A stretch of DNA of 64,000 nt from Chloroflexota bacterium. Lineage in GTDB: Bacteria; Chloroflexota; Anaerolineae; Aggregatilineales; J027. The notes below the pieces were generated by a model. It did no database searches. It was not told where the DNA came from and saw nothing but the letters and a program-made list of their open reading frames with translations. Position 1 is the stretch's first letter. Every line of letters begins with the position of its first letter. Shown here one piece after another: positions 8,207 to 49,075 of the stretch. The position numbers and the translations under genes are program-made. The DNA is taken from positions 229,602-293,601 of the forward strand of contig JABFGB010000002.1 of the NCBI GenBank assembly GCA_013112715.1, given 5' to 3'.

Positions 8207-10708
8207 TTAGCGCCACGAGCCTGCGGCAATCAAGGTTGTGCCCAGTGGGCTACCTGCTTGTTGGGTTGTCCATAGCCCAGAATTCCAGTCGAGGTCTTGG
8301 CGGTACCAGAAGTTACCCGTTCCGGTATAGTAGAGGCCGAAACTATCTTGTAGATTGTGGTTCCAGTCGCCACAGGTAAACAAACCTTCGGGGGCTTCGG
8401 GTGTGCCGAGATATTGGGCGCGATCGAAGGCCGAATAACTGATCGAGAGACCGGGTTCAGGTGGATAGGGGGCACGGTCGGTGAATGCGACAAACGCGCC
8501 ACGCCGAATGGCTACCGAATCAATGCGGTCATTGTTAAAGTTGCCCGCGCAGAATTGATGGGTGCCAGTGAAGCCTTGTGAGTCGGGCAGCATCGTGCTT
8601 AACCACTGTACGCCCAGTGGCGGCGCAGTCCCGTTGGTGAGGTCGCAGGAATAGTAGAGTGCGAAGGCCGTGCCCCAGGGCGGGAAGGGACCGCTGTCTA
8701 CAACCCCGATACAATCATTCATGGTGCGGAAGTCGAAGCGGCCCGCGACAACAGGTCGTCCGCCGCCTTGGAAACCAATCCATATCCCAAACCATTGGGA
8801 GGTTGGCCCAAGAGAGTTGGTGTAGTAGAAGATACCATTGGTAGCCATGACCCCGGGAGTCTTGATCGAGTCTGTGTTCCAGTCCCCCATGATCCATGCG
8901 CCGCCCACTGTTGCGGCCGGAGCGCCCATCGTGTAGGTATCACGGTCAAAGGTTGTCGAGGGGCTGCTGAAGTTTTTCCATAAACTAGCTTGACCCGCTT
9001 GGTATTGGAAAACAGCTAATTTATCGTCTGCACAGGAGAAGGTACTGGCATTAGCCGGATTGGTATAGGCCGAGACCGTATCATATGGAGGGATACCATC
9101 TCCATCTACAAAACCACGCACGCGGTAGTAGAAGCGGGCACTGCATATCAAACCAGTGCTGGCATAGGTCGAGACATTCGGTGCGGTCGCATGAATGATT
9201 TGCCAACCGTCAATCCCATTTTCGGAACGTTCAATGCTAAAACCTGTTTCATTGGTGGCATTGTCAACCCATACGAGGTTGATTTGGCTGCGCGAAACGG
9301 GAGTCACCACTAGGTTCGCAGGGGCAAAGAACGCACCAGACCCCGGTGAACGGTCGAAAATGAAAACGTCAGTACGGGAGTTCAGGTCGCCACCTGTTCC
9401 AAGTAGATTATCGGCATCCGAAGTGAACGCAATATAACGCCCATCGGTTGAAATGCTTGCTCGGAATGAGGGGAGGGTGCCGCCTGCGCCGGTGGTGTTT
9501 TGTGAAATGCGCGAAGTTGCGTCTGTCGTGCGATTGCGCAGGAAAATATCCAGTTGATTTTCGGTATCGTTGTTGGTCAGGTTTGTGGCGTGCGACTCAA
9601 AAGTAACGAGGTTACCATCGGTTGAAATTGAAGGATTTGATGATTCCCCGTCAGACGCGCTAGTACCGTTAAAAGCCAACGAAACCAGTTCAGTGATGCT
9701 TGTCACACGGTCACGCACATATATATCGTTGATGTCATTATCGTCTATTGCATCAAATGAGGCGGTTGAAACAAAAACCACAAAACGCCCATCGGCTGAA
9801 ACTTCTGGCCCCGCTTCGGCAAAATTGTCAGGAGCTTGGGCGCCGTTTGACGCCACCGAAGCAAGGGTCGTCGTATTGTTGATGAGATCACGGACGAAAA
9901 TATCCGGGTCGGCGGTGTCGCCAGCGACAAGATTGGAGGAGAAGGACATATACGCTACGACGCTTCCATCTCCAGAAATAGAGGGTTCGCGCGACTCACT
10001 ATTCCCTTGCTGCCCGGCGGTGCTGATTGAGAGCAGGGTAGTGGTGTTGGCAGTGAGGTCACGTAGATAGATGTCGGACAGCCCACCATTTGCATCTGTG
10101 CCGCCGACAAAATTCGCGCCCGATTCAAAGGCTACAAAACGTCCGTCACCCGAAATGACTGGGTTAAATGAATGGAGGCCGAGTCCTCCTTGTACACCTC
10201 CGCTGGTGACCGAAACACGGGTAGTGGTGTTGGTCGCACGGTCACGCAAGAAAATGTCTTCCGCGCTATTAGTATCTCCAGAAACAAGGTTGTTGGCTAA
10301 TGATTGGTAGACAACATAGCGTCCGTCATTCGAGATTTGCGGATTGGTTGACGGGCCTCCAGTGGCTTGTACTCCTGCGCTCGATAATGAAATGCGTCTG
10401 GTCGTGCAATTCAACTGGTCGTGTACAAAAATATCGGTGACACCATTGGTATCGTTTGCGACCAAGTTGTCTGAGTCTGAGGCAAATACGATAAAACGCC
10501 CGTCGCTTGAAATACGGGCTGGGTCAGAATTACCATTGCCGACATTCGTGCCGTTGTCGCTGATAGAGACACGATACATGGCACCCGTTGCACACCCTTG
10601 AGCTAGCGCAACGGGGGGGGCGTGTTCTGGCAAGATGCCAATCACCACCATCCAGCCAAGGATGAGGAGGGTAAACCATCTTTTCCTGAGGAGAGCGTTA
10701 TTTCTCAT
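8207..10708 (-). CDS. Secreted TolB-like propeller protein with fibronectin III and repeat module
   Basis: An 833-residue secreted protein. It has a signal peptide (RKRWFTLLILGWMVVIGIL then ALAQ). Residues 45-440 contain about seven repeats of the form SxDGRYVxFxSxAxNLxxxDTNxxxDIFxRD, the WD40-like blades of TolB-type propellers. A fibronectin type III-like domain follows (about 450-540), then a module of about 250 residues with FG-GAP-like GDWN repeats, ending in SWR. That module is shared with the next two proteins upstream. The ATG at 10708 is preferred because GGAAAG lies 6 bases before it and it begins the signal peptide; an in-frame GTG at 10726 is possible. A surface or matrix protein is likely; no enzymatic motif was seen. 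Confidence 0.7.
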   Translation of the reverse strand: MRNNALLRKRWFTLLILGWMVVIGILPEHAPPVALAQGCATGAMYRVSISDNGTNVGNGNSDPARISSDGRFIVFASDSDNLVANDTNGVTDIFVHDQLNCTTRRISLSSAGVQATGGPSTNPQISNDGRYVVYQSLANNLVSGDTNSAEDIFLRDRATNTTTRVSVTSGGVQGGLGLHSFNPVISGDGRFVAFESGANFVGGTDANGGLSDIYLRDLTANTTTLLSISTAGQQGNSESREPSISGDGSVVAYMSFSSNLVAGDTADPDIFVRDLINNTTTLASVASNGAQAPDNFAEAGPEVSADGRFVVFVSTASFDAIDDNDINDIYVRDRVTSITELVSLAFNGTSASDGESSNPSISTDGNLVTFESHATNLTNNDTENQLDIFLRNRTTDATSRISQNTTGAGGTLPSFRASISTDGRYIAFTSDADNLLGTGGDLNSRTDVFIFDRSPGSGAFFAPANLVVTPVSRSQINLVWVDNATNETGFSIERSENGIDGWQIIHATAPNVSTYASTGLICSARFYYRVRGFVDGDGIPPYDTVSAYTNPANASTFSCADDKLAVFQYQAGQASLWKNFSSPSTTFDRDTYTMGAPAATVGGAWIMGDWNTDSIKTPGVMATNGIFYYTNSLGPTSQWFGIWIGFQGGGRPVVAGRFDFRTMNDCIGVVDSGPFPPWGTAFALYYSCDLTNGTAPPLGVQWLSTMLPDSQGFTGTHQFCAGNFNNDRIDSVAIRRGAFVAFTDRAPYPPEPGLSISYSAFDRAQYLGTPEAPEGLFTCGDWNHNLQDSFGLYYTGTGNFWYRQDLDWNSGLWTTQQAGSPLGTTLIAAGSWR

Positions 10709-10915
10709 GCTTATCTTTCCGATCACCCAACAACTAGGTTCTCAATGTTATGTTAATTTTATTGAGAGATTGTCATAAATCCAGTTTATGCCTTAAATTG
10801 GCCCAATACACATATTTTCTAAGTGGTAAAATAGATTCCAGCAATTCTTCTTAATTGTAAATCAAAAATCACTGGAATCTGTAGAAAGTTAGCGAATTGA
10901 AATTGTTAGAGTCTG

Positions 10916-13594
10916 TCAGGGAGTTGTTTGTCTCTCATTAGCATTTTCGTCTGTGCCGATGCTGAAAGCGTCAACCGCCACCGGGCCATTCAGCGATACA
11001 ATACGGAGGGTGTGTTCACCGAGATTCAAATAATTGATGAGGCTGCTTTGGCGATAAGCGGTGGTGGAATCTGGGAGAATGATGGTACGGACAGCGACAT
11101 CATCAACCAAAATGGTGAACGAAGCGGGTGCTCCCAATTGGGCGTAGATGATCTCCACTGAACTGCCATTGAAACTATATTCAAGGCTCTGTTCCGCTGA
11201 AGTAGTCACTAAATATCCCCCACCGCTTGATTCAGGCGAGTTCACCAACTGCCATAACCCGTCTTGGCGGACAGTTGGATCATTCGATTCGATAGTGCTT
11301 GGCGCCGATGTTTGGGATGGGGGGATGTCACTTTGGGCACTGCTATCGCCGCTACCACTTCCCGCGCCACCGGATCGCCAAGAGGTAACGCTTAAGGATG
11401 ATGTGCCGATGGTGGTTGAAACCCGTTGCAGGCTGTATTGGCCCGTATTCCACTGGACATCATTACGACGGTAAAAATATCCATTGCCGTAATAAACGCC
11501 GAAACTGTCAATCGTATCATTGTTCCAGTCGCCGGATAGGAAAATGCCATAGTCATTGGTACTGGGTGTACCAAAATACTGCGCGAGGTTGAACGCCGCT
11601 TCAAGGGTGGTGGGGGCGACATTGGTAAAAGCAACATAGGGGCCACGCCGCACCGCAATGGTGTCTATTCCATCGCCGTTGAAATCCCCCGCCGCAAATT
11701 GATGTGCTCCCAATCCACCAAAACCCGCAGCATCACCAAGCACCACACTCAGCCATTGGAAGGTCAGGGGCGGGGTAGGGCCGCCGGTGAAATTGCAGGT
11801 GAAATAGAGCGCGAAGGCTGTCCCGTAGCCTGCATAATAGCCACTGTCCACAACGCCGAGGCAATCATTGGTTGCGCCGGTAAAACGACCTGCAACCGCA
11901 GGCCGACCAAATAAGCCGACCCAGATGGCACCCCAAGTGCTGGTGGTGGCGTTGCTGTTGGTAAAATAAAACACCCCATTTGACCCATAGAGGCCGGGGG
12001 TTTTGAGGCCGTCGCCATTCCAGTCACCCATGACCCACTGACCCGTGACAGGCGCGCCCCCCGGAAAATTGGTATAGGAACCTGCGACAGGGTTGTCGAG
12101 CAAGGAGTTGACGAGACTGACGTTGCCATTGGTGTTGTTAAAGCGGGCCAATGTATCGCCATAGACATTACTAACCTGCACAGTATAACCTGTGTTGGTT
12201 TGTGAGAGGACACGCATGGTGATGCCATTGGCGTTGTCGGTGAAAACTTCGCCGGGTATCCATTGGGCTGCCGCGTCGTTGGGGTTGCTGTTGTTGTCAA
12301 TATCCACCACTTGGGCGGGTTGGCTGCGGCTGCCATTATTGAGTACATCATGCAGGATCACGGCGTTACTGGGCAGGATGGCATCGTAATATTGAGAGGG
12401 AGGCGGCGTGCTGGTGGTGCGACGGGCTTCGACCACATAAAAACGATTGGATACACCATAGAAAGGTACTTGCACCATACGATACCCGGTTGTGTAGGGT
12501 TGATTGAGCCGTTCGAGCGTAACGGTTTGGGTCTGGCCGGGGTTGACCGTCACTTTGGAGGCACCGGGAATCCAACCCAGCAAGGTATCAAGGTGGAATG
12601 AGTTCGTCCCTTGTGGTAAACAACCATAAGTCGGGTCATCCGCGCCGGGTCGTCCACAACTGCCCCAAGTGTCGCTCATGACATCCCACTGCGAATCATA
12701 GGCCGCGCCATACGCACCGGATGAATGTGGCATCCCAATCGCATGGCCCATTTCATGCACAAACGGCGATTCGTTTTGCCATGCCCAACTGGGCAGCCAT
12801 GTATAACGATACCACGACACGCCGTCTCGATTGAGTGGATAGCCCCCGTAGCCGCCATAGGCCACATTTTGCATGGAGTGGTTGATAATCAGGTTGACGC
12901 CGGAATAGCTGGCAAAATTGACTTGAGCATCGGCAAGGCCCGTACATTCATTGTAGAGGGCTTGGCGTCCGGCGCTGGTCCTGAGATCATATGATGACGA
13001 AGTGCCCGACAGGTTAAACCAACCAAATGTCGCTGATCCGGTGACGTTAAACAGGCCGCCCGACATTTGCTGCCAATAGTGGTTGATGCCGGGGTAGGAA
13101 GCACTGAAGAGGCCCGTAAAATAGGAAGTTGGCTGTTCAGTTGCACCGTTGGAAACGCGACACAGAATATTGACAAACGGATAACTGCCCCCGATACGGG
13201 CTGCTTGAGCTTGGGTGTCCCCCTCTTCAACAATGCTAATGGCTCCAACCTTGATCGCTGGGTCATCCCCATCTGCCCCTGCCGCGCCGCCTTCGACCTC
13301 ATACCCGCTGATTTTCACAGTTTTGTCTTGCAAGCGGGAGGCAGTAGAAATATCGAGGAGAAGAGGTGTGACATTGCCTGCCTGATCCACTAAAGTGACA
13401 TCATAATGATAGGCAAGGTTGGAACCCGGGCCGGGATCGTGATGCAAAACGCCGAGTTTACCGACAAGGGTAATCATTCCTTGACGATGGGGAGCGGCGG
13501 ATGAAGGGTTGGTGAGCAGGAAGGTGACGCTTAGGCCTTCGACGAGGCTAAATAGGACTAGGACGGCGATTATCAACCATCGTTTGGGTAACAT
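10916..13594 (-). CDS. Secreted metzincin-type zinc metalloprotease (M11/M6-like)
   Basis: An 892-residue secreted protein with an N-terminal signal or anchor segment (residues 5-27). The zinc site HEMGHAIGMPH (His280, Glu281, His284, His290) with DVMSD as a Met-turn about 15 residues later marks a metzincin; the layout suggests the gametolysin M11 or immune-inhibitor M6 group. Residues from about 490 to 740 are the FG-GAP-like module shared with both neighbours, with GDWNGDG, GDFNGDG and GDWNND repeats. After a Ser-rich linker the last 110 residues form a beta domain (about 780-885) that also occurs at the N-terminus of the subtilisin upstream. Likely an extracellular or surface protease; substrate unknown. 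Confidence 0.8.
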   Translation of the reverse strand: MLPKRWLIIAVLVLFSLVEGLSVTFLLTNPSSAAPHRQGMITLVGKLGVLHHDPGPGSNLAYHYDVTLVDQAGNVTPLLLDISTASRLQDKTVKISGYEVEGGAAGADGDDPAIKVGAISIVEEGDTQAQAARIGGSYPFVNILCRVSNGATEQPTSYFTGLFSASYPGINHYWQQMSGGLFNVTGSATFGWFNLSGTSSSYDLRTSAGRQALYNECTGLADAQVNFASYSGVNLIINHSMQNVAYGGYGGYPLNRDGVSWYRYTWLPSWAWQNESPFVHEMGHAIGMPHSSGAYGAAYDSQWDVMSDTWGSCGRPGADDPTYGCLPQGTNSFHLDTLLGWIPGASKVTVNPGQTQTVTLERLNQPYTTGYRMVQVPFYGVSNRFYVVEARRTTSTPPPSQYYDAILPSNAVILHDVLNNGSRSQPAQVVDIDNNSNPNDAAAQWIPGEVFTDNANGITMRVLSQTNTGYTVQVSNVYGDTLARFNNTNGNVSLVNSLLDNPVAGSYTNFPGGAPVTGQWVMGDWNGDGLKTPGLYGSNGVFYFTNSNATTSTWGAIWVGLFGRPAVAGRFTGATNDCLGVVDSGYYAGYGTAFALYFTCNFTGGPTPPLTFQWLSVVLGDAAGFGGLGAHQFAAGDFNGDGIDTIAVRRGPYVAFTNVAPTTLEAAFNLAQYFGTPSTNDYGIFLSGDWNNDTIDSFGVYYGNGYFYRRNDVQWNTGQYSLQRVSTTIGTSSLSVTSWRSGGAGSGSGDSSAQSDIPPSQTSAPSTIESNDPTVRQDGLWQLVNSPESSGGGYLVTTSAEQSLEYSFNGSSVEIIYAQLGAPASFTILVDDVAVRTIILPDSTTAYRQSSLINYLNLGEHTLRIVSLNGPVAVDAFSIGTDENANERQTTP

Positions 13595-13721
13595 AGACGG
13601 CTGTTGTTCTCCCTATACTTGGTTTAATTGAGTTCTTGACCTGATAAGTCAAAAATAAAATCAGAATTAAGAACTGATTATAAGTATAGTAAATACTCAA
13701 GGCTTTTGCAACGCTTTGGTC

Positions 13722-13793
13722 AAATCCCCCTCTCCGCTCGATTCATCTATGAACCTTGACGAAAAGGGGGATAAGGTTTATTAGAGGGGATTT
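13722..13793. repeat. GC-rich inverted repeat between two secreted protease genes
   Basis: AAATCCCCCTCT at 13722-13733 pairs with AGAGGGGATTT at 13783-13793, with one unpaired C, and an inner AGGGGGAT at about 13765-13772 could pair with the same left arm. The loop is long and no clear T run follows on either strand, so this may be a REP-like element more than a terminator. Similar runs occur at 37394-37429 and 53492-53531. Confidence 0.4.
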
Positions 13794-13796
13794 AAC

Positions 13797-16700
13797 TTAC
13801 CGTTGACGCCAAGACGCAGCACTGTGAATGATACCAGTGGGTAGGCCGATATACTGGTAGATATAGGCTCCAGAATTCCAATCTAGGTCGTTGCGACGGT
13901 AGAAATCGCCGTTGTTATAGACAAGGCCAAAGCTATCTATGTTGTTGCTATCCCAGTCACCCGCCACGAACAGGCCGTAATTGACGGCGCTAGGTGCCCC
14001 GATGTATTGGGCCAGATTGAATTCGGCATGACCCGTACCGGGGACAATGTTGGTAAAGGCGATGTATGGCCCACGCCGGATAGCAACGGAATCTAAGCCG
14101 TCGTTGTTCCAATCGCCCGATACAAACTGGTGATCGCCTAGCCCCGCAAAGCCCGCACTATCACTCAGCACGACGCTTAACCATTGGAAGGTCAAAGGCG
14201 GATTGGGGTTGCCCGCGTAGTTACAGGTGAAATAGAGCGCAAACGCCGTGCCATAGGGTGGGAAATTGGCACTGTCTACCGCACCCACACAATCATTGGT
14301 GGCTCCACTGAATTTGCCAACCACAAGAGGTCGGTTGAATAGGCCAATCCAGAAGCCGGCCCAAGGATTAGCGGCCTCGTAACCGATGTTGTTGGTGTAA
14401 TAGAACACACCATTGGGTGCATACAGCCCCGGCGTTTTTTGCCCATCCCCGTTCCAGTCGCCCATGACCCATTGACCACCTGTTTGTGGCCCACCAGTTG
14501 GGTAAGTGGCATAGTTAACCGGGGGAGGTGATGTTTGGAGGGTATCCACAAGGCCTGCATAGTTGGCGCTGTTATTGAACACCGCAATGGTGTCGCCGAC
14601 TGGAATATTGCTGACACTCAGACGCAGGACACTGGTGCCCGTTGCGGCTGTCCCATATTTTGCAATCATGATGCGATAGGTTACGCCGCCTGTCGCACTG
14701 AAATTTAGGGCAGAGGTGCGAATGCCATGAATTCCATCCACATCATCATTGCACCCCTCAAATATCAATGAACCTTCCGTCCCAGTATAGACCCCAATCA
14801 CCGTGTCGTAGGTGCTGCCTTCTGTACTGACTGAGACTAGTCCAGCGGATAGAGGCGTATACTGATACCAAACAGTGTCGGAGCGAGTTGGGACATTACA
14901 CAACGTCGCACCAACCGGGTCATTTAGAGTTGTAGTGGCTTGAAAGACCTCTTGGTTACGCCGATAGGGTAGCGAAGAAACGATGGTCGCGTTGGCAAAC
15001 AAGTCATTGGAAGGTGCTCCGGCAGCTTCATCTGGTAAGACGGCTTGGACGGCGGAGAGCGCATTGATCCGCCGGAAGGTAAAGCCATTCTTGGAATCCG
15101 TCACATTGACCCCGGTGCTGTACAGCGTGCTTTGGATTTGGGCCGGAGTCAGGGTGGGGTTGGCTTCTAACATCAAGGCCGCGACTGCCGCGACTGTCGG
15201 TGAGGCTTGGGAGGTGCCACGATACGTACTCGTTCCGCCCCCCATGCCTGCGGAAGTAATGCGTGCGCCGGGGGCCAGCAAATCGAGTTCGGCATTGCTG
15301 TTGGTAAAGCATGTGATGACCGTTGCGCTAGTTGCGGCATCTGCACAAGCAGGCCATGAACCACCAAAAAGCGAGTTGTACGTCCCGCTATCGGGTTCTG
15401 CGCCCAAATTGCTGTCGTAGGTCGCGCCAACCGAGACTACACCCGTATTGCAGGCAGGCGAGGACAGACTGGTTGCGCTGCCTTGATTGCCACTGGAAGC
15501 AAAAATGGCAACCCCATGTGTATTGACTAGGGTATTGGCCGCCGTTGCGACGGTAGGTTGAGCGGCATCGCAAGTGGCGGTGCTGGTGTAGAGTGCGAAT
15601 GTCCCGAGGCTCATGTTAATGATGTCTACATTAAGAGTGGCTTGATTCGCAATAACCCAGTTCAGTCCCTCAACCCAGTCCGAGACGAAACCTGAGCCAG
15701 TATTGGAAAGCACCCGCACCGCAACAATCTTGACATCTGGCGCAAACCCGATGGGTGCAACCACACCATTGGCGGTAATGACGCCGCTGACATTCGTGCC
15801 ATGCCCATTGGCATCTTCGGCACTGATCCCACTGGCTGTATTACTAGGCGGGCAATTGTTCTGAGTTTCGCAGTGTTGGGCAATGATGTCGTCGCTTAGG
15901 TCGGGATGGTTTGTGTCAATGCCGGAGTCCAACACGGCAATCGTGACCCCCCGCCCACGTAAGCCATAGGTCAAACGAGCGACATCGGCTTGGATGGCAG
16001 GTACGCTCACATCCGTGTGCATGGTGCTCGGTTCGTCAATGACGATGGATTCCACTAGGGGGTCGGCTTGCAATTGGATAAGAGTGGCAAAGTCGGCATA
16101 CCCCGCAAAGGCTGGCAGGTGGGAATATTTATGGCGTATTTCAAATTTGCCTGCACTTGCCAAGACCTCATTTTGCATATCGGCATTGAGGCGGGTGTTA
16201 AATGGCACACGACCAAAACCAATCGAGGGGGCACGCAGTTGGACGATGACCCGGATTTGACCTTCACTTTGCGCGGCGGCCATGACGGTTTCATCGAGTT
16301 TGTCGGTATTCACACCACGCGGAATGGGCGTTGAAGCGACAGGCGCAGTTTCGGTTGGGGTGGGTTCAACAGGCGGGGGTGCTGGAATATAGAAAGCATC
16401 TACCCCGATGATTGTGCCTTCCTGCGGATAGACCTTGAGCGTATGCGGGCCATTTTCCAAATAATCCACAATGGCGCGGTTGCCAAATTGGGGTGTCGTG
16501 CCGTCGGTCATGACGGTACGCAGGACTGTGCCGTCTACTTCAATGGCGAGCGCCCCCAATGCTGGATTTTGCACATAGACGATTTCAATACGTGGGCCGA
16601 CAAATTCGAGTGTCAGGGTGTCGTCCACGCTTTTGCCGCTGTAGAGGTAACTTCCCCCACTGGCTCCGGCAGCGGCTTGTTTTGTCCAACTGCCCGATTG

Positions 16701-16853
16701 CTGGACGAGGGGATCATCAGATTCGATTAATCGTCCAACGGGGCCATCATCCGAACGAGCCGGTGTTGGCTGGGCGGACAGTATAATACCTGCTATCAGA
16801 AAGATAAAGATCAAGACACCTGAAAAAGTGCGCCGATTGGCTAATCTTGACAC
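13797..16853 (-). CDS. Secreted subtilisin-family serine protease, multidomain
   Basis: A 1018-residue secreted S8 protease. It has a signal peptide, then a beta domain (about 40-150) matching the C-terminal domain of the metalloprotease downstream, a Pro/Thr-rich linker, an inhibitor-like prodomain (about 190-280) and the catalytic domain. The triad is visible as Asp309 in VLDSGID, His351 in NGHGTNVSG and Ser548 in GTSQASP; Asn in SSGNQGS fits the oxyanion hole. A PPC-type domain (about 625-755) and the shared FG-GAP-like module (about 760-1018) follow. It starts with GTG and has GGAG 7 bases upstream. The three consecutive secreted proteins probably act at the surface together. Confidence 0.87.
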   Translation of the reverse strand: MSRLANRRTFSGVLIFIFLIAGIILSAQPTPARSDDGPVGRLIESDDPLVQQSGSWTKQAAAGASGGSYLYSGKSVDDTLTLEFVGPRIEIVYVQNPALGALAIEVDGTVLRTVMTDGTTPQFGNRAIVDYLENGPHTLKVYPQEGTIIGVDAFYIPAPPPVEPTPTETAPVASTPIPRGVNTDKLDETVMAAAQSEGQIRVIVQLRAPSIGFGRVPFNTRLNADMQNEVLASAGKFEIRHKYSHLPAFAGYADFATLIQLQADPLVESIVIDEPSTMHTDVSVPAIQADVARLTYGLRGRGVTIAVLDSGIDTNHPDLSDDIIAQHCETQNNCPPSNTASGISAEDANGHGTNVSGVITANGVVAPIGFAPDVKIVAVRVLSNTGSGFVSDWVEGLNWVIANQATLNVDIINMSLGTFALYTSTATCDAAQPTVATAANTLVNTHGVAIFASSGNQGSATSLSSPACNTGVVSVGATYDSNLGAEPDSGTYNSLFGGSWPACADAATSATVITCFTNSNAELDLLAPGARITSAGMGGGTSTYRGTSQASPTVAAVAALMLEANPTLTPAQIQSTLYSTGVNVTDSKNGFTFRRINALSAVQAVLPDEAAGAPSNDLFANATIVSSLPYRRNQEVFQATTTLNDPVGATLCNVPTRSDTVWYQYTPLSAGLVSVSTEGSTYDTVIGVYTGTEGSLIFEGCNDDVDGIHGIRTSALNFSATGGVTYRIMIAKYGTAATGTSVLRLSVSNIPVGDTIAVFNNSANYAGLVDTLQTSPPPVNYATYPTGGPQTGGQWVMGDWNGDGQKTPGLYAPNGVFYYTNNIGYEAANPWAGFWIGLFNRPLVVGKFSGATNDCVGAVDSANFPPYGTAFALYFTCNYAGNPNPPLTFQWLSVVLSDSAGFAGLGDHQFVSGDWNNDGLDSVAIRRGPYIAFTNIVPGTGHAEFNLAQYIGAPSAVNYGLFVAGDWDSNNIDSFGLVYNNGDFYRRNDLDWNSGAYIYQYIGLPTGIIHSAASWRQR

Positions 16854-44005: not shown

Positions 44006-44920
44006 CTAATTATTGAGGGCCGCCTGTGCCAATTTGTCTAGGCCATTCACTGCCGATGCCAGCGGGTTGCCTGCTTCAAGTGCCCATTCCACCGGACGAC
44101 CCTGTGCGGTGTATTTTTGTAGTTCGCGCCAAATCTCCGCATATTTGACCGGTGTGCCGCTGGCCGTTATCCAATTACGCTTTTGCCAGCCCTTGATCCA
44201 CTCAGTCACGCCCTTAAAGACATATTCACTGGTACAGTAAATTCGCAGCGGGGCATCCTTGGGCACGGTTTTGAAAATCTGTGAGGCGATCATCAATTCG
44301 AGTTTATTGGCGGATTCAACGGCGGGAACACGGCCTGTAAAATCCTGTGATTGGTCGCCATCCCACACCCGAATCGCCCAACCACCCGGCCCACCATTTT
44401 TTGGCACGACCACGCGAAAATAGACACTTAATGTGCCGGATGCTGCTTCAGCCATGACAATCGGAGCTTTTTCCGCAGTAGGTTTCGCGCCGGGGATGGC
44501 TGCTGCCGCCAATCGGTCTACTCGTTCGTTGTAAACATTGCCTGCGTGACCACGTACCCAATTCCAATGGATGTCGTGTTTTGTAACCAGCGCATTGAGC
44601 CGTTCCCATAAATCTTGATTTTTGACAGGCTGGCCTGTGCTGCTGCGCCAATCTTTGCGAATCCACCCCGGCATCCATTCGGTCAGGCCCTTTTTAACAT
44701 ACTCGCTGTCTACAAAAAGGTAAATTTCATGGGGCTGGTCAAAGGCTTGGAGGGCATTCATTACGGCTGTAAGTTCCATGCGGTTATTGGTGGTATCCTT
44801 TTCGCCGCCCGACAGTTCACGTTCCTGTCCGTTTTCATCAATAATCAAAACAGCCCAACCGCCGGGACCGGGATTGGGTTGGCAGCCACCATCGGTGTAA
44901 ATCGTTGCTTTTGGTTTCAT
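44006..44920 (-). CDS. rnhA: Ribonuclease H with an inactive second RNase H domain
   Basis: A 304-residue protein made of two RNase H-type domains. The first (1-143) is complete: Asp10 in TIYTDGGCQPNPGPGG, Glu49 in NNRMEL, Asp71 in FVDSEYV, His125 in RGHAGN and Asp135 in NERVDRLA. It should cut the RNA strand of RNA-DNA hybrids. The second (about 163-304) follows the same course, including GGPGGWA, NKLEL, SEYVFKGVTEWIKGWQKRNW and GLDKLAQAA, but Asp10 is replaced by Arg169, Asp71 by Thr230, and the His by Glu or a gap. Glu208 and Asp295 remain. The usual single-domain enzyme is about 150 residues, so this is a fused duplication whose second half probably binds without cutting. Confidence 0.9.
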   Translation of the reverse strand: MKPKATIYTDGGCQPNPGPGGWAVLIIDENGQERELSGGEKDTTNNRMELTAVMNALQAFDQPHEIYLFVDSEYVKKGLTEWMPGWIRKDWRSSTGQPVKNQDLWERLNALVTKHDIHWNWVRGHAGNVYNERVDRLAAAAIPGAKPTAEKAPIVMAEAASGTLSVYFRVVVPKNGGPGGWAIRVWDGDQSQDFTGRVPAVESANKLELMIASQIFKTVPKDAPLRIYCTSEYVFKGVTEWIKGWQKRNWITASGTPVKYAEIWRELQKYTAQGRPVEWALEAGNPLASAVNGLDKLAQAALNN

Positions 44921-45005: not shown

Positions 45006-45050
45006 GTGCGTTCCAAACTTTGGTAATGGGCAGATTTGTACTGGAACACC

Positions 45051-48000
45051 ATGAAATTTAAATTTCATCTTTACGTTCAAAAACATCGGAACCGCACGTA
45101 TACCGTGACGGTGCTGCCATTTTATGACATCAGCAGTTACGGCATCAATATGACGGAGATCAAAAAAGAGCTATCGGATGTCGTGATTGAACGCATTGCT
45201 GAAATGCCACCCAACCAACTGCATCGTTTGGAGTTTGATTCGCACATTTATCTGCAAAAAGTGCAGGTTGAACTCCGCCCAGTTGACCGCAAGAAACGTA
45301 ACAAACGCCGCGAAAAGGTCAAACTCCTGTTTAGTGTACTGGTTGAACCGCAAGAAGACGGTCAGTTATATGTCACCGTACCAAAACTTGGCCCACACGG
45401 GCCTGCTTTCTATGTGTACCAACCCGACGAATTGCAGACGCAGGCCAATATCGAATTGGCTGGCTGGCTCGATAATCTATCGCTCGATCAGTTGATGGAA
45501 TATCGGTATGCGCGGACCGAGACGCTGGAAACCTTGGAAGTTGAAGTCTCACTGAAAAAACCCAAAGAACGCGAGTCCAATAACCATGAACGCGGTGGGA
45601 TGTTTGGGCGCGGCGGTGGGGACGGTCATTGGGCCTTGAAAGAAATGGGCATCAATTTGACCGCACAGACGACTGAAAAACGCTTCCGCAAGGCTTATCA
45701 CCGTGAAGAAGTGGTAGATAAGGCCATGCAGGTGCTGCTGCAATCGCGTAATAACAGCGTTTTGTTAACTGGCCCTAGCGAAAGTGGCAAAACTTCGATT
45801 GTGCATGAAATTGTGCGGCGGGTCGCCTCCCAAGACGCGCCAGAAGGATTGGTGGAACGCGAAATCTGGATGCTGGCCCCGGATCGGATTATCGCAGGGG
45901 CACAGTACATTGGCACATGGGAAGAACGCATCAACGATTTGGTCAATGAGTGCCGCAAAAAGCAGCATATTTTGTATGTCAGCGATCTGCCCGGTTTGTT
46001 GGAAATTGGCCGTTGGTCAAAAAGTGATGCCAACGTCGCCCAAGCCCTGAAACCCCACATCGCCTCAGGTGAAGTCGTGATTATCGGGGAGGGGTCGCCG
46101 GATCGCGTAACGATGGGCGAACGGCTCGGCTCGGATTTCATGAATTTGTTCCGGCGGGTAGATGTGCCAGCTATGTCGGAGGAAGAAACACTCGCGGTTT
46201 TGAGCAACGTGGCCCGCGATTTGGAACGGGAATTTGACCTACGCATTGAACCTAGTGCCAATGAAGCCGCCACCCAGCTTTCGCGCCGATTTTCACCTTA
46301 TCGTGCTTTTCCGGGCAAGGCCATTCGTTTGTTGGAAGAAGCAGTGGCCGATGTCTCCCGTAAAAAGGATTCGGCGGAGTCGGATAACGGACGGGATGCT
46401 CCTACGTCGGCCAGTCTGCTGCGGCGATTACCCAAACGGGCAGTGGTCAAACGGCAGCATGTCATTGACACTTTTGCCCGCCATTCGGGGATGCCGGAAT
46501 TTATTGTCAATGACCGTTCGCGCCTTGATCTGGCAGAAGTTGAGAAATACTTCATGGAGCGGGTGCGCGGTCAAGAGCAGGCGGTTGGTTCAATCGTCAG
46601 TTTGGTAGCGACGGTCAAAGCGGGTTTAAATGACCCCGGCAAACCGCTCGGCACATTTTTGTTTATTGGGCCGACCGGGGTCGGCAAAACTTTTCTCGCC
46701 AAGACGCTGGCCTCCTATCTGTTTGGCGACGAAAAACGCCTAATCCGCTTCGATATGAGCGAATATGCTGATTTGGATGGGGTGTCGCGTCTCATCGGGT
46801 CGTTTGGCAGTGAAGGCGAATTGACCAAGCAGGTGCGTGCCCAACCGTTTTCGGTGGTGCTGCTGGACGAATTTGAAAAAGCCTCCCCACGCATCTATGA
46901 CATCTTTTTGCAGGTGTTGGGCGAAGGGCGCTTGACCGATGCGGGTGGCCGCACGACCTTTTTCCACAACAGCATCATTATCTTAACCAGTAATCTGGGG
47001 ACATCAGCAGGCGGTTTTCGCGGCTTAGGTTTTGGCAGCGAAAACGTCAACTATGCCGAACTAAACGCCCAATTGATGGTGCATTTCAAGGAGCAGGTCG
47101 AGAAATATTTCCGGCCTGAATTTGTCAACCGCATTGACCATGTGGTGGTGTTTAAACAGCTTGAACCGCTGGCCCTGCGCAGTATTGCCTCACGCGAATT
47201 GGGCGAAATTCTCATGCGTGATGGCATCACCCGCCGTAATTTGTTGGTCGAAATTGACGATGCGGTGATTGATCTAGTCTTGGAAAAAGGCTACAGCCCG
47301 CAATATGGCGCACGTCCGCTCAAGCGTGAAATTGAACGGTTGGTGGTCGCCCCGATGGCCCACCAATTGGCCCAAAAATCGGTGGATGATACTGAGTTAA
47401 TGCGGATTGAGGTGGATCGGGAAAGCAAGCAGATCAACCTCAAGCTCGTGCCGATTGACGAAGCACGTACCACGACACAAGTAGCCCTTTCGACGGCGCT
47501 GGATGGAACGGATATTCAAAAGCTGCAAATGGATACCGGGCAGTTGTTGGAAGGGTTCGCTATGCTGCGCCGCCGATTAGCGGATTGGGCCGACAGCGAT
47601 ACGGTCAAAGAGATGAATACCGAAAAAGCAGCCCTTTTGACGGCGACCCAGCAACCGGATTTTTGGGATAAAGGGGATGAGGCCCGCCGCCGATTGGCCC
47701 GTTTCTACTTCCTTGATCGTCTGACCCGCCGCCTGCGCCAACTGCTGGAACGCTGCGAATATCTGGAAGATTTTGCTATGCTGGTCAATCGGGAGCGCGA
47801 TTTGCGTTATCAGCCGGATTTGGCGCGAGATTATGCCGAGCTATATAGCAATGTGCTGTATCTTGAAATCGAGATGCGAACGGGACATCTACCGCACCGC
47901 CACCAAGCGATGATGTTAATTAATCGCTTGGGTCAATCGCCGATGAAAGATCAACAGGCTGCGACGGAATGGCCCCGCAAAATCGCCCGTATGTATCTGG

Positions 48001-48605
48001 AATGGGCAGAGCGTAAGGGTTATGACCGTGAGGTGTATTTGCTGCAACCGGATGAAAAAAGCCCCGGTAAGATGGCTTTCCATCACATCACCGCTGGGAA
48101 CTATGATGAACTCATCAAACGTTTTGAGGCTTATGCTCCCTCCGAAGAATTTGCGATCTTTTTTGAGGGTAGTAATGTGTTTGGTTTCCTCAAAGGGGAG
48201 CGTGGCACTCATAAATTGGTTGGGATAGATGGCGCATCGGATGAGTTGTGTCGGGTGCAGGTCTTTGCGATTCCTGATGGTACCAATATCAGCCGTTGGC
48301 TCTCAGATTATCAGTACATCAAAAACGAGATTGCGGAGGGCAAACGTCCACCACCCCCTACCGAAAAACTCACTGTCATCCGCACCTATTCATTAGAAAA
48401 ACAGGGCGAACGCTTTGTGCGGGATATGCGCACGACGGTACGTACTACGCGCATCAAAGACGTGATGGAAAAAGGCCGCTTGGATGATTTTATTTTGGCC
48501 TATTTGCAGCAGGAAGATGAAAATGTGGCATGGGAAGACCGTTTCCCGCCGACCTTCCCGTTCGAGCGCCGCGTCTATCGTGACCGCAATCCTTCAACTT
48601 CCTAA
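45051..48605 (+). CDS. ClpB/ClpC-like double AAA+ ATPase fused to a release-factor-2-like domain
   Basis: A 1184-residue protein. Residues 1-200 are a unique domain, not the usual Clp N-domain. AAA1 (about 205-470) has Walker A GPSESGKT at 241-248, but its Walker B reads ILYVSD in place of the usual hydrophobics-Asp-Glu. AAA2 has GPTGVGKT (540-547), VVLLDEFEKA (Asp606, Glu607), GRLTDAGGRT and the ClpB-type small domain PQYGARPLKREIERL. The usual GYVG pore loop after SRLIG is missing. Residues about 835-1160 resemble release factor 2: QPDFWDKGDEARR (868-880), ARMYLEWAERKGY (979-991), FLKGERGTHKLVGID (1046-1060), and the tail VRDMRTTVR...RLDDFILAYL. The GGQ peptidyl-hydrolase domain is absent. 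A ribosome-linked remodelling role is my inference. Confidence 0.85.
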   Translation: MKFKFHLYVQKHRNRTYTVTVLPFYDISSYGINMTEIKKELSDVVIERIAEMPPNQLHRLEFDSHIYLQKVQVELRPVDRKKRNKRREKVKLLFSVLVEPQEDGQLYVTVPKLGPHGPAFYVYQPDELQTQANIELAGWLDNLSLDQLMEYRYARTETLETLEVEVSLKKPKERESNNHERGGMFGRGGGDGHWALKEMGINLTAQTTEKRFRKAYHREEVVDKAMQVLLQSRNNSVLLTGPSESGKTSIVHEIVRRVASQDAPEGLVEREIWMLAPDRIIAGAQYIGTWEERINDLVNECRKKQHILYVSDLPGLLEIGRWSKSDANVAQALKPHIASGEVVIIGEGSPDRVTMGERLGSDFMNLFRRVDVPAMSEEETLAVLSNVARDLEREFDLRIEPSANEAATQLSRRFSPYRAFPGKAIRLLEEAVADVSRKKDSAESDNGRDAPTSASLLRRLPKRAVVKRQHVIDTFARHSGMPEFIVNDRSRLDLAEVEKYFMERVRGQEQAVGSIVSLVATVKAGLNDPGKPLGTFLFIGPTGVGKTFLAKTLASYLFGDEKRLIRFDMSEYADLDGVSRLIGSFGSEGELTKQVRAQPFSVVLLDEFEKASPRIYDIFLQVLGEGRLTDAGGRTTFFHNSIIILTSNLGTSAGGFRGLGFGSENVNYAELNAQLMVHFKEQVEKYFRPEFVNRIDHVVVFKQLEPLALRSIASRELGEILMRDGITRRNLLVEIDDAVIDLVLEKGYSPQYGARPLKREIERLVVAPMAHQLAQKSVDDTELMRIEVDRESKQINLKLVPIDEARTTTQVALSTALDGTDIQKLQMDTGQLLEGFAMLRRRLADWADSDTVKEMNTEKAALLTATQQPDFWDKGDEARRRLARFYFLDRLTRRLRQLLERCEYLEDFAMLVNRERDLRYQPDLARDYAELYSNVLYLEIEMRTGHLPHRHQAMMLINRLGQSPMKDQQAATEWPRKIARMYLEWAERKGYDREVYLLQPDEKSPGKMAFHHITAGNYDELIKRFEAYAPSEEFAIFFEGSNVFGFLKGERGTHKLVGIDGASDELCRVQVFAIPDGTNISRWLSDYQYIKNEIAEGKRPPPPTEKLTVIRTYSLEKQGERFVRDMRTTVRTTRIKDVMEKGRLDDFILAYLQQEDENVAWEDRFPPTFPFERRVYRDRNPSTS

Positions 48606-48691: not shown

Positions 48692-49075
48692 ATGGCCGAG
48701 ATTACGCCGGGTCAGGTTTACGATATTATTGGTAGTGCAGGCTTTGAAAAACTGGTTGCGGGGTTCTATCGGCGGGTTGCTACGGATGATGTTTTGCGCC
48801 CGATGTATCCCGAAGACGATTTAGAACCGGCCCGCCGCCGTCTGCAATTGTTCTTGGAACAGTTTTTTGGTGGCCCCACCACTTATTCGCAAGAACGGGG
48901 GCATCCCCGCCTGCGGATGCGTCATGCGCCTTTCAAAATTGACCAAGCGGCGCGAAATCGTTGGGTTGAACTGATGATCGCTGCGTTGGACGAGGTTGGA
49001 TTGGACCCGGAAGTTGCAGCAGTGATGCGGGATTATTTTGAAAATGGGGCGTCATTTTTGATCAATTCTCAGTGA
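48692..49075 (+). CDS. Truncated haemoglobin, group II type
   Basis: A 127-residue globin of the truncated (2-on-2) class. The start (VYDIIGSAGFEKLVAGFYRRVATDDVLRPMYPEDDLEPARRRLQLFLEQFFGGPTTYSQERGHPRLRMRHAPFKID) has the family features: Tyr at helix B (GFYRR), Phe and Tyr in the distal region, and the proximal His in RMRHAPF. Trp in NRWVELM is the group II helix-G tryptophan. Such proteins bind O2 or NO and may protect against nitrosative or oxidative stress. It may be co-transcribed with the small membrane-protein gene that follows closely. Confidence 0.9.
   Translation: MAEITPGQVYDIIGSAGFEKLVAGFYRRVATDDVLRPMYPEDDLEPARRRLQLFLEQFFGGPTTYSQERGHPRLRMRHAPFKIDQAARNRWVELMIAALDEVGLDPEVAAVMRDYFENGASFLINSQ

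Follow-up and report, generated by a model that had tools for sequence, protein, structure and literature searches.

What would bring the scaffold of a peptide chain release factor to the end of an ATP-driven protein-remodelling motor? The question is raised by a gene in a 64,000-nucleotide stretch of a Chloroflexota bacterium (GenBank assembly GCA_013112715.1, contig JABFGB010000002.1, positions 229,602 to 293,601 of the forward strand; hereafter the window, numbered from its first letter), which encodes in one chain a two-ring Clp/Hsp100-type AAA+ protein and a tail derived from release factor 2 (RF2). The open reading frame runs uninterrupted from 45036 to 48605 on the plus strand and counts 1189 amino acids from a TTG at 45036, the numbering used for residues below. 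The ATG at 45051 is the probable start, because the orthologues of two congeners and the member L202 retain the beginning MKFKF; the gene as we delimit it from this single open frame, its orthologues and its substitution pattern thus occupies 45051-48605 (+) and encodes 1184 amino acids.

The last 355 residues (835-1189) are homologous to RF2. Pfam family PF03462 (PCRF) matches the tail alone with E=1.4e-11 and, when the whole protein is searched, residues 864-1062 with E=3.8e-10, while the NCBIfam model TIGR00020 (prfB) matches the tail with E=6.8e-23 in three co-linear stretches that follow the order of RF2. A phmmer search reached RF2 chains at 1e-7, and a profile built from 21 fused tails aligned RF2 in the Protein Data Bank over essentially its full length (E=5e-60) and RF1 more weakly (about 1e-36). 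The AlphaFold2 model of the tail, which has a mean predicted local distance difference test score (pLDDT) of 87.8 and a predicted template modelling score (pTM) of 0.84, finds RF2 as its top Foldseek match (E=9e-14) and fits Escherichia coli RF2 (1gqe) with a Z score of 21.7 and a root-mean-square deviation of 4.2 Å over 278 residues. The profile searches and the fold match show an RF2-derived module that, in the predicted structure, keeps the fold of domain 1 and of superdomain 2/4. They confirm what a preliminary description of this DNA had proposed, an RF2-like domain fused to a Clp-type AAA+ protein; the module is real, although it begins slightly earlier than the position 47620 given there, at about residue 835 (47538).

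Within the module, a helical bundle resembling RF2 domain 1 (47541-47882, +) is delimited by the PCRF match, the helices of the model and a tryptophan present in 24/24 tails (W877), and contains PDFW at 47655-47666. The first part of superdomain 2/4 follows at 47904-48269 (+), where alignments and the fold match place the retained MYLEWA and GERGTH. A short helix and a PPPP segment then take the place of the GGQ-bearing domain 3 in both model and alignment (48270-48374, +). The C-terminal part of the superdomain (48375-48527, +), with IRTYSL, VRDMRT and VMEKGRLDDFILAYL, was located by the prfB match and the profile alignment, and precedes an extension (48528-48602, +) predicted to be largely disordered (pLDDT near 45 for the greater part).

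In known structures of RF2, the stop codon, the decoding centre and the peptidyl-transferase centre are contacted by the GxGGxE tip of helix alpha-5, the SPF and HTSF motifs, the GGQ motif and the switch-loop tryptophan. These elements are largely gone from the fused tails. None of the 24 tails has GGQ at the homologous position, and most or all of domain 3 is missing; in the window protein, about 35 residues (1079-1113) that include PPPP stand in for it. The letters GGQ that occur in L202 and L071 lie elsewhere than the homologous position and were rejected as a catalytic motif. SPF and HTSF are kept in no tail (S in 2/24, P in 3/24, F in 1/24, H in 0/24), each glycine of the alpha-5 tip survives in at most 2/24, and the switch-loop tryptophan is mostly lost (retained in 5/24). 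At ten positions that vary little or not at all in canonical RF2, 24/24 tails have the identical residue (W877, W990, G1045, L1052, E1055, G1057, H1059, R1116, Y1118 and G1147 in window numbering), and D1130 is retained in 23/24; from the alignments, the positions common to all tails look like those of the RF2 scaffold. The preliminary description was thus right that the GGQ domain is missing and that a PPPP-containing segment replaces it, but the retention of ribosome-contact parts that it stated finds no support. With the reading and catalytic elements lost, the fusion protein is not expected to read stop codons or to release chains. Ribosome docking, if it occurs, must use other surfaces than the named contacts, and since the ribosome-contact elements are gone, the tail as an A-site mimic is inferred only; the role in ribosome rescue or nascent-chain quality control that the preliminary description put forward stays a hypothesis. 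Ribosome binding is still compatible with the absence of SPF taken by itself, because RF2 recruited by ArfA or BrfA can work on non-stop ribosomes even when its SPF motif is not functional (PMC8012679).

The motor that carries this module is recognized by Pfam AAA_2 (E=2e-40) and ClpB_D2-small (E=2.4e-13), and NCBIfam models for ClpB and ClpA match it below threshold only. Its motifs were compared with those of five Clp proteins that the genome also encodes. The first AAA+ domain (D1; 45630-46385, +) keeps Walker A (GPSESGKT, 45771-45794, +), but the acidic pair of Walker B is lost in nearly all members; the window protein has a degenerate HILYVSDL (45966-45989, +) where ordinary Clp references have ILFLDEL. 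A glutamate at the D1 sensor-1 position is invariant in a 22-row alignment, and only some subtypes retain the D1 pore-loop aromatic. The second domain (D2, with D2-small; 46638-47396, +) retains Walker A (GPTGVGKT, 46668-46691, +), Walker B (VVLLDE, 46854-46871, +), sensor 1, the arginine finger (in NRID, 47130-47132, +) and sensor 2, with few exceptions among the members. No fused member has the D2 pore loop GYVGYEEGG, and the window protein has IGSFGSEGEL in its place (46794-46823, +). These motifs suggest that D2 is the working ATPase and that D1 binds ATP yet hydrolyses it poorly. At the position by which ClpA, ClpC and ClpX dock on ClpP, the window protein has an LGF loop (47025-47033, +); 27 of 30 members have GF and the remaining ones GL or GY. 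This [LIVW]GF loop aligns with that of the same-genome ClpC-like proteins, unlike ClpB, and could let the ring dock on ClpP. Both ClpP and transfer-messenger RNA are present in the same genome. The N-terminal 220 residues gave no Pfam match at E up to 1, to Clp_N or any other family; the alpha/beta domain at 45051-45545 (+), which matches no Pfam family and has a pLDDT mostly between 60 and 92, occurs only in this subtype (7/396 genomes, all in frames of 1155-1199 amino acids). Between D2 and the RF2-like module, a probably flexible linker (47457-47525, +) was modelled at low confidence (pLDDT 32-40) in the full-length prediction (overall pLDDT 81.6, pTM 0.54), the domain arrangement of which is not to be trusted.

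The fusion gene is under purifying selection. The gene is intact in the two congeners, whose tails are 97-98% identical to that of the window protein, and the ratio of nonsynonymous to synonymous substitution rates (dN/dS) against them is 0.02-0.04 for the tail and 0.00-0.03 for the other domains, within 0.00-0.05 over all regions tested. A survey of 400 Chloroflexota genomes with the tail profile found 15 with strong matches, in frames of 987-1192 amino acids and from several families, and the fusion architecture recurs within the phylum; a class survey and one made with the N-terminal domain added more members. Public genomes scanned with a DNA pattern yielded at least 118 stretches, at least 12 of them with a detectable RF2-like tail; among the matches listed, tails occur in Ulvibacterium marinum (Bacteroidota), Labrys okinawensis and other Alphaproteobacteria, Lysobacter antibioticus, two Verrucomicrobiota and two further bacteria. 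Strong matches were found in 6/121 genomes of the order of Lysobacter and in 1/142 of the class of Labrys, the latter being the genome on which that survey was centred. The fusion thus recurs across Chloroflexota and, with a patchy distribution, in Proteobacteria, Bacteroidota and Verrucomicrobiota, a taxonomic spread that is a lower bound. Tails outside Chloroflexota are shorter, and a profile made of these alone has canonical-length release factor frames as its next-best matches, which provides independent support for their RF2 origin. Six of these non-Chloroflexota members (L155, L199, L201, L235, L238 and L239) have an N-terminal hydrophobic stretch that by hydropathy score, rather than membrane prediction, is a possible membrane anchor. 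One locus (L200:10358-19291, G617 contig 351) holds three tandem Clp-like genes. The first and second have the full length of the fusion and long C-terminal extensions, and the third is incomplete at the end of the stretch; the tail profile detects the second only.

Replacement of RF2 by the fusion was considered and rejected, as the genome of the window encodes a separate RF2 with GGQ. In 12/12 other carrier genomes tested, a shorter separate frame matches the tail profile, as expected of the cell's own release factors, and the fusion is therefore an addition. A tree of 57 tail and release factor rows places 24/24 fused tails on one side of a 100/99 branch and RF1 and RF2 on the other, with long branches and no fused tail among the canonical RF2s. 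Because the tails form one clade apart from RF1 and RF2, a single ancient fusion followed by loss or transfer is the likely and simplest reading, for which the long branches leave no proof. In the D2 tree, the fused proteins stand apart from 44 ordinary Clps (100/97), except that the tail-less L153, from a Myxococcales metagenome-assembled genome, groups with the fused motors. By our reading of its sequence, this protein has a degenerate D1, an LGF loop and N-terminal HEAT-like repeats instead of the RF2 tail, and it shows that the motor lineage exists without the RF2 module.

No general gene neighbourhood was found among the contexts examined. An XPB-type helicase lies near the fusion gene in two lineages, and MutS or ExoVII adjoins single members. 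In one Chloroflexota family (L072, L074, L076-L079) the gene sits between pyrR-like and pyrB-like genes on the same strand. The most divergent member, a fusion-like gene with altered D2 Walker A and arginine finger, directly follows a HEAT-repeat protein and an XPB-type helicase in an operon-like array (L067:4181-11162, -). In the window, a truncated-haemoglobin-type gene (Bac_globin; 48692-49075, +) lies directly 3′ of the fusion gene on the same strand, and a ribonuclease HI gene (44006-44920, -) encodes two tandem RNase_H domains, seen as two Pfam stretches; the second copy, read by eye, is without the expected catalytic acids and is possibly a pseudo-enzyme. Farther away (8207-16853, -) are three adjoining genes for secreted-type proteins, one with PD40 repeats, one metalloprotease-like by eye and one an S8 subtilase, which appear to have in common a C-terminal repeat region of the GDWNGDG..TPGLY type. 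Neither Rfam nor tRNA searches gave a match within the window. As to a mobile or defensive home for the fusion, the plasmid search gave no match, phage matches were weak (at most about half of the query, 21-31% identity) and those to PADLOC defence systems were confined to the generic AAA region.

What, then, might the module do for the motor? We tentatively favour, at somewhat below an even chance, an ATP-driven and possibly ClpP-coupled remodeller that its non-catalytic RF2-derived docking module targets to a translation-related complex. The module would act as a targeting domain on its probably flexible linker and bring the motor to a translation factor or a ribosome; there the ring, driven by ATP, would dislodge or remodel a component or pass a chain to ClpP. 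Such a machine would resemble a fused pair of Cdc48 and a release factor homologue, without chain release by the module. In its favour stand the RF2 homology of the tail, the conserved architecture under selection, the separate clades of tails and motors, the presence of the fusion in addition to separate release factors, the intact D2 motifs and [LIVW]GF loop beside the lost D1 Walker B, the ClpP and transfer-messenger RNA of the same genome and the low-confidence linker. Several observations weigh against it. The elements of known RF2 contact with mRNA and rRNA are lost, so that docking on the ribosome would need other surfaces. Ordinary threading is made less likely by the state of the pore loops, that of D2 having disappeared from every member and that of D1 from some. 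The fusion gene has no translation or protease gene as a conserved neighbour, members outside Chloroflexota often have the N-terminal hydrophobic segment that may anchor them in a membrane, and the tail-less relative with HEAT-like repeats indicates that the motor is not tied to translation.

The chief rival, which we regard as only slightly less likely, is that the RF2 module was reused for its fold only and now serves a Clp-type remodeller or partner of ClpP, unrelated to ribosomes, in assembly, in regulation or as a substrate adaptor. It accounts about as well for the loss of the contact motifs, every named ribosome or mRNA contact being lost while the positions kept in all tails look scaffold-like, and it is consistent with the shorter tails of non-Chloroflexota members (several with the hydrophobic N-terminal segment), with the existence of a tail-less relative and with the lack of translation genes nearby. 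Yet the absolutely or nearly absolutely conserved E1055, H1059, R1116 and D1130 are polar and might mark a surface shared with RF2, and Chloroflexota members keep the whole RF2 architecture including domain 1, more than a generic scaffold needs. An unlikely form of ribosomal action is a single-chain machine in which the dead RF2 docks on stalled ribosomes or on 50S-peptidyl-tRNA complexes and the Clp motor pulls the nascent chain or hands it to ClpP; if true, it would be a counterpart, of independent origin, to the Cdc48-Vms1 branch of eukaryotic ribosome-associated quality control. Less probable again is a non-releasing decoy that occupies the release factor site and holds or protects stalled or hibernating ribosomes, its removal being controlled by ATP hydrolysis: every tail lacks GGQ yet retains the overall fold, and GGQ-less release factor relatives such as Dom34/Pelota act on ribosomes elsewhere (PMC6514570), but the decoding-centre contacts for stable A-site occupancy are lost and six tails per ring seem excessive for a one-site decoy. 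Finally, an artefact or chance product, whether a frameshift joining two genes (a possibility the preliminary description had raised), a mis-assembly or the joining of a Clp gene to an RF2 gene in recent decay, is ruled out for practical purposes, as the frame is continuous, the identical architecture recurs in congeners, several more Chloroflexota families and other phyla, the tail dN/dS is 0.02-0.04, and no evidence supporting such an origin was found.

Whichever partner it has, this conserved family ties an AAA+ motor to a release factor fold without any of the named reading or catalytic elements, and raises the question of what an RF2 scaffold unable to read a stop codon or release a chain binds. 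A ribosomal target would make the fusion a new kind of motor in bacterial translation quality control, and with a non-ribosomal one it would be an unusual example of a release factor that became an adaptor. The fusion may reveal an unrecognized link between protein remodelling and the ribosome. Isolates carrying the fusion, among them Lysobacter antibioticus, Labrys okinawensis and Ulvibacterium marinum, may make genetics or biochemistry feasible.

Our search of open papers found no description of a Clp-RF2 fusion, a design of which the preliminary description likewise named no characterized example; in a survey of release factor evolution (PMC6514570), neither "Clp" nor "PCRF" occurs. Both halves are of known kinds, and it is their combination, its conservation and the stripped state of the RF2 part that are apparently undescribed. 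RF2 itself (prfB; PF03462 PCRF and PF00472 RF-1) resembles the tail in sequence and fold over domain 1 and superdomain 2/4, whereas the tail has no GGQ, domain 3, SPF, GxGGxE tip or HTSF, stands behind a Clp ATPase and forms a separate clade. The ClpC/ClpA-type Hsp100 unfoldases, partners of ClpP, have in common with the fusion the two AAA+ domains, an intact D2 ATPase, D2-small and the [LIVW]GF loop, but the fusion differs from them in giving no Clp_N match, in the loss of D1 Walker B and the D2 pore loop, in its RF2-derived C-terminus and in its separate D2 clade. Among NCBIfam Clp models, that of ClpB/Hsp104 (TIGR03346) scores best, at 401 bits far under its curated cut-off of 1232 bits; the window protein matches its model positions 153-403 and 525-849 only, leaving unmatched the stretch 404-524 between D1 and D2 where ClpB has its M domain, and the LGF loop of the fusion is absent from the ClpB of the same genome. 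Dom34/Pelota is analogous as a release factor relative without the catalytic motif, but belongs to the archaeo-eukaryotic eRF1 family, not to RF2, and has no AAA+ domain. Vms1/ANKZF1 with Cdc48/p97, in eukaryotic ribosome-associated quality control, likewise pairs a release-factor-type protein with an AAA+ motor (PMC5989216, PMC6514570); Vms1 has an unrelated release factor fold (aeRF-1) and release activity, and the pair consists of two chains, so that the likeness to the fusion is a functional analogy and not one of homology.

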